Positions 5,935 to 45,243 of a DNA stretch of 47,686 nucleotides are shown here, in pieces. The notes below the pieces were generated by a model, which was not told the DNA's origin, made no database searches, and saw only the letters and a program-made list of their open reading frames with translations. A program made the translations under genes and the position numbers. The stretch's first letter is position 1, and every line of letters starts with the position of its first letter. Source of the DNA: a virus; the IMG/VR virus record IMGVR_UViG_3300021962_000182, positions 1-47,686 of that record; one strand, 5' to 3'.

Positions 5935-5944
5935 ACTATTTATA
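5935..5944 (+). promoter_or_regulatory. Candidate late promoter (ACTATTTATA)
   Basis: Nine of ten bases match ACTATTTATT. It ends only four bases before the ATG at 5949, and no Shine-Dalgarno lies between, so transcription from it would start at or very near the start codon. Confidence 0.45.
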
Positions 5945-35473: not shown

Positions 35474-35509
35474 GAGCGGGTGTATCTTTCGGGGTATGCC
35501 CGCTCTTTT
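35474..35509 (+). terminator. Rho-independent terminator after gp32
   Basis: GAGCGGGTGTA pairs with TATGCCCGCTC (11 pairs, two wobbles) around a ten-base loop and continues into TTTT. Confidence 0.88.
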
Positions 35510-35527
35510 CATATACAAAGGAACAAA

Positions 35528-36677: not shown

Positions 36678-36713
36678 AAGGCTTCCTAGGGGTTGACGCT
36701 CTTAGGAAGCCTT
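36678..36713 (+). promoter_or_regulatory. Hairpin overlapping the promoter after uvsX
   Basis: AAGGCTTCCTA pairs perfectly with TAGGAAGCCTT around a 14-base loop that contains the -35 hexamer TTGACG. There is no following T tract (GTTACT), so this is a poor intrinsic terminator; it may instead be an operator or an RNA 3' end for uvsX. Confidence 0.6.
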
Positions 36714-36721
36714 GTTACTAT
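36693..36721 (+). promoter_or_regulatory. Sigma70-like promoter of the deaminase gene
   Basis: TTGACG, 17 bases, TACTAT. The spacer is mostly the right arm of the hairpin at 36678-36713. The predicted start lies about 17 bases before the ATG at 36745. Confidence 0.6.
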
Positions 36722-36744
36722 CTTGGTGTTGGAGATTGAACATC

Positions 36745-37161
36745 ATGGAGTCGGACCCGAAGTTGTCTAAGAAGAAGCAGCGGTTTATTGACCTTGCCGC
36801 ACGAATCGCACAGCAGACCGAGTTTAAGGAATACAAGCATGGTGCCGTTCTTGTTCGTGCTGGAGCCGTTCTAAATACCTCTTGTAACAAGAACAAGTAT
36901 AAGGCATGGGCAAATCAGTTTCGTAAGAAGCAGCGTGGTCATGCTACTGTTCATGCTGAGATTGGTGCTATTCTTGGTCTTGATCGTTCTGTGACTGAGG
37001 GTGCTACCATTTATGTTGTTCGCGTTGGAAAGTGTGGAGATCTGAAGAACTCTAAGCCTTGTCCGATGTGCGAAGCTGCTATGCAGTATGTGGGCATCAA
37101 GAAGGTTGTTTATTCCTCCGAAGATGGTAAGATTGAAACTATGAGGATTTATAATGAGTGA
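36745..37161 (+). CDS. Deoxycytidylate/cytidine deaminase-family protein
   Basis: 138 residues. The zinc-dependent deaminase signature is complete: H70-A71-E72 and P105-C106-P107-M108-C109 (HAEIGA and PCPMC). It would convert dCMP to dUMP, feeding ThyX in the same region. The length and the absence of a regulatory insert leave cytidine or another substrate open, but the phage context favours dCMP deaminase. GGAG is ten bases upstream. The in-frame start at 36712 would place the start in the promoter. It ends in an eight-base overlap with the next ATG. Confidence 0.85.
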   Translation: MESDPKLSKKKQRFIDLAARIAQQTEFKEYKHGAVLVRAGAVLNTSCNKNKYKAWANQFRKKQRGHATVHAEIGAILGLDRSVTEGATIYVVRVGKCGDLKNSKPCPMCEAAMQYVGIKKVVYSSEDGKIETMRIYNE

Positions 37162-40896: not shown

Positions 40897-42279
40897 ATGA
40901 CGACAACAGAAAAGAACGATTTCAGTCGTTTTGGCCGCGCATTTCAAGAAAATCTGGTTCAACTGATTCTTCTTGATAGACCTTTTAGCGATCAAATTCG
41001 TGAAGTGTTCTCAACAGAATTTCTTGAACTTAAATATCTTCAAGCATTTGTAAATCTTATCTTTAGTTATAAAGACAAATATAAGATTCATCCTACGTTT
41101 GATATTATGACTACGCTTGTTCGCACAGGTCTTGAAGATCAGAACGAGACAGTCCAAAAGCAAGTTCGTGATTACTTTGCCCGTATTCACGATAAAGAAC
41201 CAGATGGTGCGGATTTTGTTAAGGAAACCTCACTTGATTTCTGTAAAAAGCAAAAGCTAAAAGAAGCTATGTTGAAGTCGGTAAAGCTTCTTCAAACTGC
41301 TTCTTTTGATGAAATTTCTAAAACTATTAACGAAGCTCTAAAGCTTGGCACCACATCTGACTTTGGTTATGATTATCTTGTAGATTTTGAAAAGCGATTC
41401 CAACTTAAATCTCGTAATCCACTCTCTATGGGTTGGGCTGAAATTGATTCTATCTGTAAGGGTGGTCTTGGAACAGGAGAGCTTGGAGTTGTAATTGCTC
41501 CTACAGGTGCTGGTAAATCGATGGTTCTTGTCCATCTTGGAACGGAGGCGATTAAGGCTGGCAAAACCGTAGTTCACTATACCCTAGAGCTTGCTGATTC
41601 AGTTGTTGCTTCACGTTACGATAGTTGTCTTACGGGTATTGAATTGAAGAATCTGTTTTCATTTAAGGAGCAGATTTTCCAATCAGTCCAAGAACTTGCT
41701 GGAAAACTAATTGTTAAGGAATATCCTACCAAATCTGCTTCTACAAATACTCTAAAGCTTCATCTTGAGAAGCTAAAAATTAAGGGCATCAAACCAGATA
41801 TGATCATCGTTGACTATGGTGATCTTCTTCGTCCTATTTCTAATCAAAAGGAGAAGAGACAGGAACTTGAAACTATTTATGAGGAGCTACGAGGATTAGC
41901 CCAAGAGAATACTTGCCCTGTTTGGACCGCATCACAAACAAATCGTTCTGGTCTAAACGCAGAAGTTATTACTATGGAAAGCATTAGCGAAGCATTTAAC
42001 AAGTGCTTCGTAGCAGATTTTATTTTCTCTGTGTCACGAACTGTTGAAGATAAAACCACTAACTCTGGTCGTATCTTTGTAGCTAAAAACCGTAATGGTC
42101 CAGATGGTCTTGTCTATCCAATCTTCATGGATACTTCTAATGTCAAGATTAAAGTATTGCCCTCGACAGGAGAGACACCATCGGATATAATGGTTAAAAG
42201 TTCAAAAGAACAAGAAGACAACCTAAAGAAGAAATATTCTAAATATAAGAAAAAGAAAACGGAGAACGAAGATGTATAG
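40897..42279 (+). CDS. Replicative DNA helicase, gp41/DnaB-like
   Basis: 460 residues. The RecA-type helicase core is clear: Walker A APTGAGKS (201-208), VVHYTLELADSVVASR (a DnaB-type H1a region) near 225-240, Walker B MIIVDYGDLLRP near 305-316, and PVWTASQTNRSG near 343-354. GRIFVAKNRNGPDG near 385 is the conserved C-terminal motif with the arginine finger region. It forms a hexamer unwinding the fork; no primase was seen in the window. The N-terminal 140 residues are helical, fitting the primase-interaction domain. It overlaps NrdJ by eight bases. Confidence 0.93.
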   Translation: MTTTEKNDFSRFGRAFQENLVQLILLDRPFSDQIREVFSTEFLELKYLQAFVNLIFSYKDKYKIHPTFDIMTTLVRTGLEDQNETVQKQVRDYFARIHDKEPDGADFVKETSLDFCKKQKLKEAMLKSVKLLQTASFDEISKTINEALKLGTTSDFGYDYLVDFEKRFQLKSRNPLSMGWAEIDSICKGGLGTGELGVVIAPTGAGKSMVLVHLGTEAIKAGKTVVHYTLELADSVVASRYDSCLTGIELKNLFSFKEQIFQSVQELAGKLIVKEYPTKSASTNTLKLHLEKLKIKGIKPDMIIVDYGDLLRPISNQKEKRQELETIYEELRGLAQENTCPVWTASQTNRSGLNAEVITMESISEAFNKCFVADFIFSVSRTVEDKTTNSGRIFVAKNRNGPDGLVYPIFMDTSNVKIKVLPSTGETPSDIMVKSSKEQEDNLKKKYSKYKKKKTENEDV

Positions 42280-44677
42280 TAAAGAAGAGGTTAATGCTAA
42301 TAGCGTTTCCTATTTTAATGGTGACGAATTGGCAGGTAACGTATTTACAACAAAATACGCCCTAAAAACTAAAGATGGTAAGTATTTGGAGTCAAACCCA
42401 GATCAAATGCACCAACGTATAGCCAAAGAATTTGCTCGTATTGAAGCAAAGTTTGGTGGTGAGACAGCATTAGATTACGATACAATTTATAATGATATTA
42501 AAAACTTTGGTTATATCGTTCCACAAGGTTCTCCTATGTATGGAATTGGTAATAACGAGACAGTAGCATCACTATCAAATTGTGTTGTAGTTGCTTCACC
42601 AGAAGATAATGTTTCATCAATTATGGATTCTGGTAAACATCTTGCCAATCTATTTAAGCGTCGTTGTGGCGTTGGTATTGATATTACTAATTTACGCCCA
42701 GAAGGTATGATTGTAAATAACTCAGCAGGCACTACAACAGGTGCTTGGTCATTTGCTGATTTCTACTCCTATGTTTGTAGAATGATTGGTCAAAATGGTC
42801 GTCGTGGTGCTCTTATGATTTCAATTGATGTAAGACATCCAGATGTATTTAAATTCGTTAAGATGAAGCATGACTTAACAAAGGTAACAGGTGCAAATGT
42901 CTCAATTAGAATCTCAGACGATTTCATGGAAGCTGTGGAGCAAGATCAAGATTTTACTTTGCGATATCCTGTTGATTCCGCTGTTCCTACTTATACTAAA
43001 AACATTAGAGCCAGAGAGTTATGGAAAGATATTGTTGATTCCGCGACAAAAACAGCAGAACCAGGACTCTTGATGTGGGGTAATATTGAGAAGTTCTTGC
43101 CAGCAGAAAGCTACAAAGATCATGGTTTTAAGACACTAACTACTAATCCATGTGGCGAAATTCCTCTTTCAGCTTACGATAGTTGCCGTCTTGTTTCTGT
43201 GAACCTTAAATCATTTGTAGAGAATTCATTTACGAATGATGCTAGATTTAATTTTGATCTCTTTAAGAAAGTCACTAAGCGTGCTATGCGTTTGTCCGAC
43301 GATCTTATTGAGCTTGAAATTGAGAAGCTTACAAAGATTCTAAACGCTTGCGATACACCAGACGAAAAAGAGCTTTGGACTAATCTTCTTAGAGCTTGTG
43401 TGGACGGACGTAGAACAGGTCTTGGAACACACGGATTAGCTGATGCTTTGGCTTGTCTACAAATTCCTTATGACTCTACTCTTGGTCTTGCGATGATTGA
43501 CGAAATCTATCGCACACTAAAAGAAAGTGCATATGGTGAATCTGTTTGGCTTGCAAAAGAACGTGGTTCATTCCCTGTATTTGATTGGGAACTTGAAAAA
43601 GATAATGCTTTCATCAAATCTCTTCCAAGTGAAATTCAAAATGCAATTAAGACATTTGGACGCAGAAATATTAGTATTCTAACAAATGCTCCAACAGGTT
43701 CTGTTTCAATTATGTCTCAAACCTCTTCTGGTCTTGAACCTGTATTCCGTAATTTCTATATTCGTCGTCGTAAACTTTCTCATAATGAGCAAGATCAAAC
43801 TGCAACATTCGTAGATGCAGTTGGAGACAAATGGACTGAATATAAAGTTTACCATCAAAATGTTCAAGAATATTTGAAACTCTTTAATACTGATGAAGTG
43901 CCAGATTTCTTTACTGAGTCAGACAAAATCGATTGGAAGCGTCGTGTTGAAATTCAAGGAACAATCCAAAAACATATTGATCATTCAATTTCTTCTACAA
44001 TCAACCTTCCAAAAGGAACTACACCAGAGACAGTCGCAGAACTTTACCAACTTGCTTGGAAACACGGCTTAAAAGGCGTTACAGTTTATGTTGATGGTTC
44101 CCGTGATGGTGTCTTAATTACAGAGACAAAAAAAGAAGAATTCCCACAACATAATGCTCCAAAACGTCCAACAACACTTGAAACTGATATTCACAACCTT
44201 ACAATTAAGGGAGAGAAATGGACAATTCTTGTTGGTCTAATGGATGGTAAACCTTACGAAGTTCTTGGAGGAGCAAATAAAATTGTAGACCTTCCAAAGA
44301 ACGCAAAGAAAGGACAACTTCTAAAAGTTTCAACTGGTAAAAATCAAGCTCGTTATGATTTAGTAGTTGATGATTTGACTGTCAAAGATGTTTCAAAAGT
44401 ATTTGATAATCCAAATTACTCAACCTTTACCCGTTTACTTTCTCTTTCACTTCGTCATGGTGCTCCAATTAACTATGTTGTAGAACAAATGCAGAAAGAG
44501 CAAGATGCAGATATGTTCTCGTTTGCTCGTTCAATTGCAAGAGTTCTAAAACACTATGTCCCAGATGGAACAAAAGCCACAGGAGTAAAAACTTGCACAG
44601 AATGTGGATCAACTAACTTGATTTACCAAGATGGATGTGCTACTTGTGCTGACTGTGGAAATTCAAAGTGCGGCTAA
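42272..44677 (+). CDS. nrdJ: Class II (cobalamin-dependent) ribonucleotide reductase
   Basis: 801 residues, one chain. The active-site cysteines occur as C104 (SLSNCVVV), C294 within NPCGEI (292-297) with Glu 296, and C305 (DSCRLVSVNL). The C294-C305 spacing of 11 equals that of the Lactobacillus adenosylcobalamin enzyme and differs from class I. A GDP-type loop and NAPTGSVSIMSQTSSGLEP near 474-492 are also typical. The C-terminus ends in a Cys-rich zinc-ribbon (CTECGS and CATCADCGNSKCG), as in NrdJ/NrdZ proteins, with the terminal Cys pair acting as a reductant relay. No NrdB-type subunit is needed. It makes dNTPs for replication. Confidence 0.92.
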   Translation: MYSKEEVNANSVSYFNGDELAGNVFTTKYALKTKDGKYLESNPDQMHQRIAKEFARIEAKFGGETALDYDTIYNDIKNFGYIVPQGSPMYGIGNNETVASLSNCVVVASPEDNVSSIMDSGKHLANLFKRRCGVGIDITNLRPEGMIVNNSAGTTTGAWSFADFYSYVCRMIGQNGRRGALMISIDVRHPDVFKFVKMKHDLTKVTGANVSIRISDDFMEAVEQDQDFTLRYPVDSAVPTYTKNIRARELWKDIVDSATKTAEPGLLMWGNIEKFLPAESYKDHGFKTLTTNPCGEIPLSAYDSCRLVSVNLKSFVENSFTNDARFNFDLFKKVTKRAMRLSDDLIELEIEKLTKILNACDTPDEKELWTNLLRACVDGRRTGLGTHGLADALACLQIPYDSTLGLAMIDEIYRTLKESAYGESVWLAKERGSFPVFDWELEKDNAFIKSLPSEIQNAIKTFGRRNISILTNAPTGSVSIMSQTSSGLEPVFRNFYIRRRKLSHNEQDQTATFVDAVGDKWTEYKVYHQNVQEYLKLFNTDEVPDFFTESDKIDWKRRVEIQGTIQKHIDHSISSTINLPKGTTPETVAELYQLAWKHGLKGVTVYVDGSRDGVLITETKKEEFPQHNAPKRPTTLETDIHNLTIKGEKWTILVGLMDGKPYEVLGGANKIVDLPKNAKKGQLLKVSTGKNQARYDLVVDDLTVKDVSKVFDNPNYSTFTRLLSLSLRHGAPINYVVEQMQKEQDADMFSFARSIARVLKHYVPDGTKATGVKTCTECGSTNLIYQDGCATCADCGNSKCG

Positions 44678-44686
44678 TCTAAAAGC

Positions 44687-44715
44687 TTGACGATAGCCTC
44701 CATATTGGTTAGTTT
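44687..44715 (+). promoter_or_regulatory. Sigma70-like promoter upstream of a small gene
   Basis: TTGACG, 17 bases, TAGTTT (three of six to TATAAT, the key T, A and T). A better -10 (TACTAT, 44715-44720) would need a 22-base spacer. Its spacer contains the left arm of the hairpin at 44697-44734. Confidence 0.5.
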
Positions 44716-44734
44716 ACTATGACTAATATGGAGG
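44697..44734 (+). promoter_or_regulatory. Hairpin that sequesters a Shine-Dalgarno in read-through RNA
   Basis: CCTCCATATT (44697-44706) pairs perfectly with AATATGGAGG (44725-44734), and the right arm ends in GGAGG, the ribosome binding site of the gene at 44741. RNA started at the promoter at 44687 begins after the left arm, so only read-through RNA from nrdJ should fold it. T4 genes e, soc and 49 use this design. Confidence 0.7.
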
Positions 44735-44740
44735 TTATTT

Positions 44741-44968
44741 ATGTCTGCAAAATGTAATCATTTAGTCCCAGCTTTAGAACAAAACAAAAAATGTGTAAGC
44801 TCAGATCCAAATAGCAGAACACATTTTTGGATACCAACAGGATATATAGAAGCAAAAATCAACAATACTATAAGAGTTGACTTTATCTGCAAATACTGTG
44901 AAAAAAGAGTTACAAACTTCTTAGACAAAGAAGAATATGAATTAAACAAAAGGTTATTAGGTGCATAA
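44741..44968 (+). CDS. Small protein with Cys/His metal-binding type motifs
   Basis: 75 residues. CNHLVPALEQNKKC and FICKYCEKRV carry CxxH- and CxxC-type pairs spaced about 45 residues apart, compatible with a zinc finger. It is followed by the cochaperonin gene with a one-base overlap. Function unknown; a small regulatory or adaptor protein is a guess only. Its binding site lies in the hairpin above. Confidence 0.65.
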   Translation: MSAKCNHLVPALEQNKKCVSSDPNSRTHFWIPTGYIEAKINNTIRVDFICKYCEKRVTNFLDKEEYELNKRLLGA

Positions 44969-45243
44969 TGTATTATTTATCCCCACGAAACAATTACTTG
45001 CTAATCGAACCCCTAGAGGTTATAGAAGAGAAACCCAAGCAAGCTTTCCTTCTTCCAACTGATTACAAGGAAAAGGAAAACCCATACAAAGTTATGCGGG
45101 TTATTGAAGATTCAACTGATAAGTATAAACCAGAAAGTTTAATTTTGGTTCCATCACATATGATTGAAGAAATTGAATTAGAAGGTCAAAAACACTTTCT
45201 AGTTACACAAAACTATGTTATAGCAACAGTCACACAGGAGTGA
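44968..45243 (+). CDS. GroES-like cochaperonin (gp31-type)
   Basis: 91 residues. The layout matches the GroES barrel: NNYLLIEPLEVIEE as the first strand, a mobile-loop-like KPKQAFLLPTDY, a central VMRVIEDS strand and a closing NYVIATV strand. T4 gp31 (111 residues) replaces GroES so that gp23 fits the GroEL cage. Here the capsid protein is unusually long (592 residues), so a dedicated cochaperonin makes sense. Sequence identity to GroES is low and the conserved IVL-type mobile-loop contact is only partly seen (AFLLP). It is translated in overlap with the previous gene. Confidence 0.65.
   Translation: MYYLSPRNNYLLIEPLEVIEEKPKQAFLLPTDYKEKENPYKVMRVIEDSTDKYKPESLILVPSHMIEEIELEGQKHFLVTQNYVIATVTQE

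Follow-up and report, generated by a model that had tools for sequence, protein, structure and literature searches.

What does it mean for a phage gene when the hairpin that buries its Shine-Dalgarno (SD) sequence also appears to hold a promoter? This question is raised by a small gene in the window, by which we mean the entire virus record analysed here (47,686 bases, possibly a fragment). Its Gp23-type capsid protein suggests a tailed phage, probably T4-like and distant from T4. The features that concern us lie in the following order:

42272..44677, + strand: ribonucleotide reductase gene (PHROG 84, E 1.5e-108), upstream source of read-through RNA
44687..44692, + strand: putative -35 box TTGACG (5/6 matches; TTGACA at the same place in most relatives)
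44697..44711, + strand: left (anti-SD) arm, inside the promoter spacer
44710..44715, + strand: putative -10 box TAGTTT, weak (3/6), where arm meets loop; relatives have TATTTT, TACAAT or TATAAT
44720..44734, + strand: right arm, whose 3' end is the GGAGG SD (44730-44734)
44735..44740, + strand: T-rich tail TTATTT from stem to ATG, the U-tract of the proposed terminator
44741..44968, + strand: gene for a small protein of 75 aa in which Cys/His positions are conserved (alignment of 14)
44968..45243, + strand: gene for a 91-aa protein, a probable GroES-like cochaperonin (weak profile matches in solved structures)

The small protein has no match in Pfam or PHROG, and its profile gave only weak, mixed matches against solved structures. 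The 91-aa product is a probable cochaperonin, a weak assignment: its only matches to solved structures are two weak ones, both to GroES (E 0.12 and 0.21). A thymidylate synthase gene also lies downstream.

Hairpin, Shine-Dalgarno sequence and predicted promoter overlap

The ten-pair stem described in the initial annotation is present: CCTCCATATT (44697-44706) is fully complementary to AATATGGAGG (44725-44734). With G-U pairs, the stem extends to 15 bp (44697-44711 with 44720-44734, loop of 8), and 20 bp form across 44692-44739. RNA folding predicts -21.5 kcal/mol for the 40-nt hairpin (z -6.8), a stability equalled in 0/200 shuffles, and it has the top + strand hairpin score in the whole window. 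The GGAGG said to be buried (44730-44734) is indeed entirely paired, 6 nt before the ATG at 44741, and this end of the right arm is the sole SD of the gene. Following the -10 box, the right arm closes with ATATGGAGG and leads through the T-rich TTATTT to the ATG (window 44687-44743).

A promoter had also been proposed to overlap the left arm, and we found sigma70-type boxes straddling this arm, conserved in place and weak in the window. TTGACG, 17 bp, and TAGTTT amount to 8 of 12 consensus matches, an only fair promoter with the poorest -10 box (3/6) in the cassette family of the small gene, while the boxes at the same place in relatives have 8 to 12 of 12 matches, the best being TTGACA-16-TATAAT. 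Spacing between the boxes is 16 or 17 bp in 18 of the 19 distinct sequences and 18 bp in one. Since the boxes straddle the left arm, RNA from this promoter, with a predicted start at about 44722 (7 nt past the -10 box), would lack that arm. In predicted folds, opening the SD of the window costs 18.9 kcal/mol in read-through RNA versus 3.8 in promoter-derived RNA, and the means are 15.0 versus 2.5 kcal/mol over 25 cassettes, 19 of the small gene and 6 of uvdE, each folded with and without the left arm. A first scan for nested promoters was set aside as too lax, since shuffles yielded similar totals; the strict genome scan used a threshold of 9 of 12, below which the window's own site (8) falls.

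Conservation of the layout and selection on RNA

Searching with a profile of the small protein, we found 27 loci, 24 of which have the cassette layout; the three without it (L073-L075) are the most distant homologues, 36% identical. With the window included, the conservation set comprises 25 loci and 19 distinct 62-mers, every one of which forms a single ungapped helix of 12 to 20 Watson-Crick pairs. Approached from the reductase gene, 33 loci were found, four of them excluded as cut before the gene's end. Among the 29 read past the gene end, the cassette is present in 19. Two others (L037 and L040) have a nested promoter and a hairpin followed by TTTT, with a separate SD outside it before the cochaperonin gene, and one (L044) has a plain terminator-like hairpin. 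The remaining seven have nothing comparable downstream, one of them (L038) showing only a short stem around the -10 box.

The opposed positions of the helix in the 19 sequences are 306 Watson-Crick, 44 G-U, 2 A-C, and 5 other. A DNA dyad should show G-T and A-C equally, whereas a + strand RNA helix should favour G-U, so the ratio of 44 to 2 argues for selection on RNA (binomial p 3e-11, a value that overstates independence, the sequences being related). Across 12 core positions, pairing reaches 99.6% within a sequence's own arms and 52% when the arms come from different variants, a difference that is partly a register effect because the core was re-anchored for each sequence in a script count; two-sided changes between variants occur at 12/12 of these positions. 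A stricter control with free register, using 12 typed arm pairs (one of them, L066, mis-trimmed), gave 14.4/15 for own arms versus 11.3 for crossed arms. Pairs were counted by script because a MAFFT alignment of the 19 sequences puts the arms out of register. Despite the divergence of the arms, the purine-rich, SD-bearing sequence is kept in the 3' arm. Anatomy, conservation, RNA-level covariation, and T tail can be read directly in these sequences, and we regard the anatomy and the RNA-level selection as near certain. Covariation, conserved box placement, and folding together give good support to the core idea of the initial annotation, namely that only read-through RNA hides the SD and that the internal promoter frees it.

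The T-rich tail points to a probable terminator

The hairpin is probably also an intrinsic terminator, a property absent from the initial annotation, because a conserved T-rich tail follows it. The T fraction of the gap between SD and start codon has a mean of 0.85 in the cassettes versus about 0.26-0.33 in other genes of these phages, and values of 0.83 or more occur in 0/138 background genes (Mann-Whitney p 4e-7 on distinct gaps; the background, with script-picked starts, excludes 16 of 124 locus genes that have an upstream TTGAC, 9 of these 16 being non-cassette). The tails could alternatively be kept to extend pairing with upstream A residues.

By the d'Aubenton Carafa formula, the terminator-type score ranges from -14.7 to +25.9 in the family (18/19 sequences, L062 being without a scorable hairpin) and is -4.8 for the window cassette, near two of the further three terminator-like hairpins that the window contains (19.4, 0.8, and -4.9). 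An RB49 promoter/stem-loop scores 26.8, and T4 e together with five T4 early-type SD-hiding hairpins scores -29 to -74. The separation of family and T4 scores suggests that an SD lock like that of T4 and a terminator like that of RB49 are united in the family. In the window itself the T tail is interrupted, and the window copy is among the weaker ones in both promoter and tail.

Relation to T4, RB49 and insertion sequences

Transposase genes of IS10 and IS50 are protected in a related manner, in that external RNA folds over the ribosome binding site whereas RNA from their own promoter does not; a fold in external RNA only is also predicted for the cassette, and the IS context is that of a mobile element. 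According to PMC2988022, the T4 genes I-TevI, segB, soc, and e have a ribosome binding site hairpin in early/middle RNA only, the site being free in late RNA. In these genes as in the window, the 3' arm contains the SD; a promoter within the hairpin and folding of read-through RNA only, described there for T4, are predicted for the window. Their promoter is the late TATAAATA, whereas the boxes of the window are sigma70-type. The layout that the initial annotation ascribed to T4 e agrees with the T4 e sequence, in which the late box is inside the hairpin, and predicted folds and covariation indicate SD pairing of the T4 e/soc type in read-through RNA of the window.

T4 also has early-type promoters nested in hairpins that cover an SD, at NC_000866 positions 123092, 136335, 166806, and 53942 (annotated genes alt.-3, alc, ndd.4, and nrdC.8; for ndd.4, the start that fits the hairpin comes 15 nt after the annotated start), with a fifth upstream of regB (L076). 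These five resemble the window family in having a sigma70-type promoter, a left arm within the spacer, and an SD in the right arm; unlike the window family, they have no T tail, nor does any other T4 SD-hiding hairpin examined.

Promoter/stem-loop (PeSL) cassettes were reportedly described in RB49-type phages by Arbiol in 2010 and Comeau in 2014; they are said to occur as densely spaced repeats, similar in sequence, that mediate recombination. At the RB49 site, the loop of the T-tailed hairpin contains the -10 box of a sigma70-type promoter, and the window likewise combines sigma70-type boxes with a stem-loop. This stem-loop is a candidate terminator, with a conserved T tail and the terminator-type score given above. 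At the RB49 sites inspected, however, the SD is outside the hairpin, whereas in the window it is inside; and in contrast to the density ascribed to PeSLs, cassette copies are few and dissimilar, with one full cassette in the window and nested hairpins of differing sequence in relatives. PeSL cassettes of RB49-type phages are cited in PMC4503421 and PMC5931544. As judged from sequence, the cassette merges the T4 e/soc-type SD hairpin with the RB49-type promoter-in-terminator. Such a triple overlap of promoter, terminator, and SD lock was not found described in the open-licence papers searched, which is no evidence of its being unpublished.

Similar cassettes before other genes

In relatives, a second SD-locking cassette precedes a UV-endonuclease-like gene (6 records), assigned to the UvdE family by Pfam in one viral relative. 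Before recA, relatives (3 records, the gene being recognized through its resemblance to recA of the window, which matches Pfam RecA) have a nested promoter whose T-tailed hairpin does not include the SD. In the window, a hairpin with TTTT stands before recA at 35474-35510; its -35 box is lost, and relatives hold a TTGACT-TATCTT promoter there. After recA, at 36678-36745, there is a terminator-like hairpin whose loop contains TTGACG, followed by 17 bp, TACTAT, and a dCMP deaminase gene; here promoter and terminator may be nested in another manner, the -35 box being the part that lies in the loop.

We scanned viral contigs for TTGACA, CCTCC, and GGAGGTTTT at cassette distances and obtained 47 loci with paired arms and a T tail, 10 of which belong to the small-gene family. 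They give 32 distinct cores, among which the -10 box is inside the hairpin in 27, a start codon with an ORF of at least 40 residues is present in 28, and all features are present in 25. The arm-swapped control pattern gave 3 loci, none complete and none with a -10 box or start codon. A non-complementary left arm gave 16 loci, 12 of them distinct, with one complete (L194), which is a real-looking cassette in another register. An A tail gave 5 loci, read individually, of which two are near-identical full cassettes; the 9-mer baseline for these A-tailed loci comes from pattern-selected loci and is biased.

The genes downstream of the viral matches are unrelated to each other. A scan of species genomes gave at least 119 stretches, and among the 80 matches listed, 77 are distinct and 25 complete; control patterns cover the viral contigs. 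Six loci among the complete ones listed (L217, L228, L236, L258, L266, and L271), on Clostridia-like bacterial contigs, precede a gene of HTH/biotin-ligase/repressor-like type, as judged by printed protein starts for all six and by Pfam for L217 only. We put forward, with a likelihood a little short of even, a recurring self-insulating gene-start module, in which a 50-60 bp hairpin would be terminator, lock, and promoter scaffold at once and would have arisen or spread many times before unrelated phage and bacterial genes. On this same tentative footing, its phage genes would include those for UvdE, cytidine deaminase, a PHP-domain polymerase III alpha-like protein, RecA, a 5'-3' exonuclease, adenylosuccinate synthetase, and WhiB, and its bacterial genes, many on Clostridia-like contigs, those of biotin ligase/repressor and penicillinase-repressor families.

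A proposed double lock and its alternatives

For the window family, we consider it likely that the cassette is a composite insulation device made of a terminator, an SD lock, and a nested promoter that escapes both. RNA arriving from the helicase/ribonucleotide reductase operon would carry both arms and fold into the 15-20 bp hairpin, which with the T-rich tail would stop incoming transcription just before the start codon. Any RNA reading on past the terminator would have the small gene's SD hidden by the hairpin and be untranslatable. The promoter of the small gene/cochaperonin operon would be built into the same hairpin, with the -35 box before the left arm, the left arm in the spacer, and the -10 box at the loop, and its RNA would begin within the right arm. 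Such RNA could not form the hairpin and so would be neither terminated nor blocked; with incoming RNA doubly locked and their own RNA free, the small gene and cochaperonin gene would obey their own promoter only. Promoter activity, termination, translational block, and the purpose of insulation are what we infer from the sequences.

One alternative holds that the cassette is a translational lock of the T4 e/soc kind, without termination and with an incidentally T-rich gap. T4 e is laid out alike, the sigma70-type promoters of alt.-3, alc, ndd.4, nrdC.8, and regB are nested in SD-hiding hairpins that do without a T tail, and the window's own tail is interrupted. This account is nevertheless unlikely, given the strong enrichment of the T tail over background genes, the 47 T-tailed loci against 5 A-tailed ones, and terminator-type scores of about -15 to +26 in the family against -29 to -74 in the T4 cases. 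The opposite simplification, a terminator with a nested promoter of RB49 type whose 3' arm contains the SD merely because a gene start adjoins it, draws on an RB49 site (L077, 3201) that nests alike with a T tail and an SD outside the hairpin, on the element of this kind before recA in relatives, and on the separate SD before the cochaperonin gene in L037 and L040. We judge it quite improbable, since the arm-swapped pattern, equal in termination ability, gave 3 loci with neither a -10 box nor a start codon against 47, and divergence of the arms has left the purine-rich SD within the 3' arm, in the uvdE cassette as well.

Two further explanations place the function elsewhere. The dyad does span the promoter, so that it might be read as a DNA palindrome, either a repressor operator or a cruciform aiding promoter melting; yet a DNA dyad has no reason for the strand preference seen in 44 G-U versus 2 A-C, and arm sequences differ widely among relatives. 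The operator was set aside on the G-U excess, and the palindrome as a whole is very improbable. A hairpin that hides an SD, together with a terminator, is a typical expression platform, which would fit a regulated switch whose read-through hairpin is opened at some stage of infection, either by temperature or by a factor of phage or host. Against this, no conserved sensor sequence is present in loop or flank, and an Rfam search gave no family at gathering score, its one weak antisense match being judged chance, so that a switch is hardly credible here.

If the double lock is real, the module would let a gene sit in any operon yet obey its own promoter only, and two regulatory designs of T4-like phages, known separately, are joined in one, the evolutionary evidence for retention of both locks being strong. 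Since the cassette pattern is searchable by sequence, it offers a simple, testable way of picking out insulated genes where phage or bacterial genomes lack annotation, and the cassette itself would be a compact part for insulated expression.

Probable insulation rather than late timing

The initial annotation had suggested that the small protein and the cochaperonin may be timed as in T4. This part did not find support, because the promoter boxes are of sigma70 type and CTATTTA, the motif proposed below for late promoters, is absent here: neither TATAAATA nor CTATTTA occurs within 44670-44740, and TATAAATA is not enriched. Timing of the T4 e/soc type is thus not favoured, and the cassette has the appearance of a device that shields its genes from transcription arriving from upstream. 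Elsewhere in the window, CTATTTA occurs 13 times on the + strand and twice on the - strand, with 9 of the 13 at most 60 nt from a start, and a strand bias is also seen in relatives (46:12 in G001 and 4:24 in G002). The motif, for example at 5936, 8750, 11178, 16333, 22456, 31534, and 38989, and often as ACTATTTAT, lies 10-60 nt before mostly structural genes and is a candidate for the late promoter of this phage.
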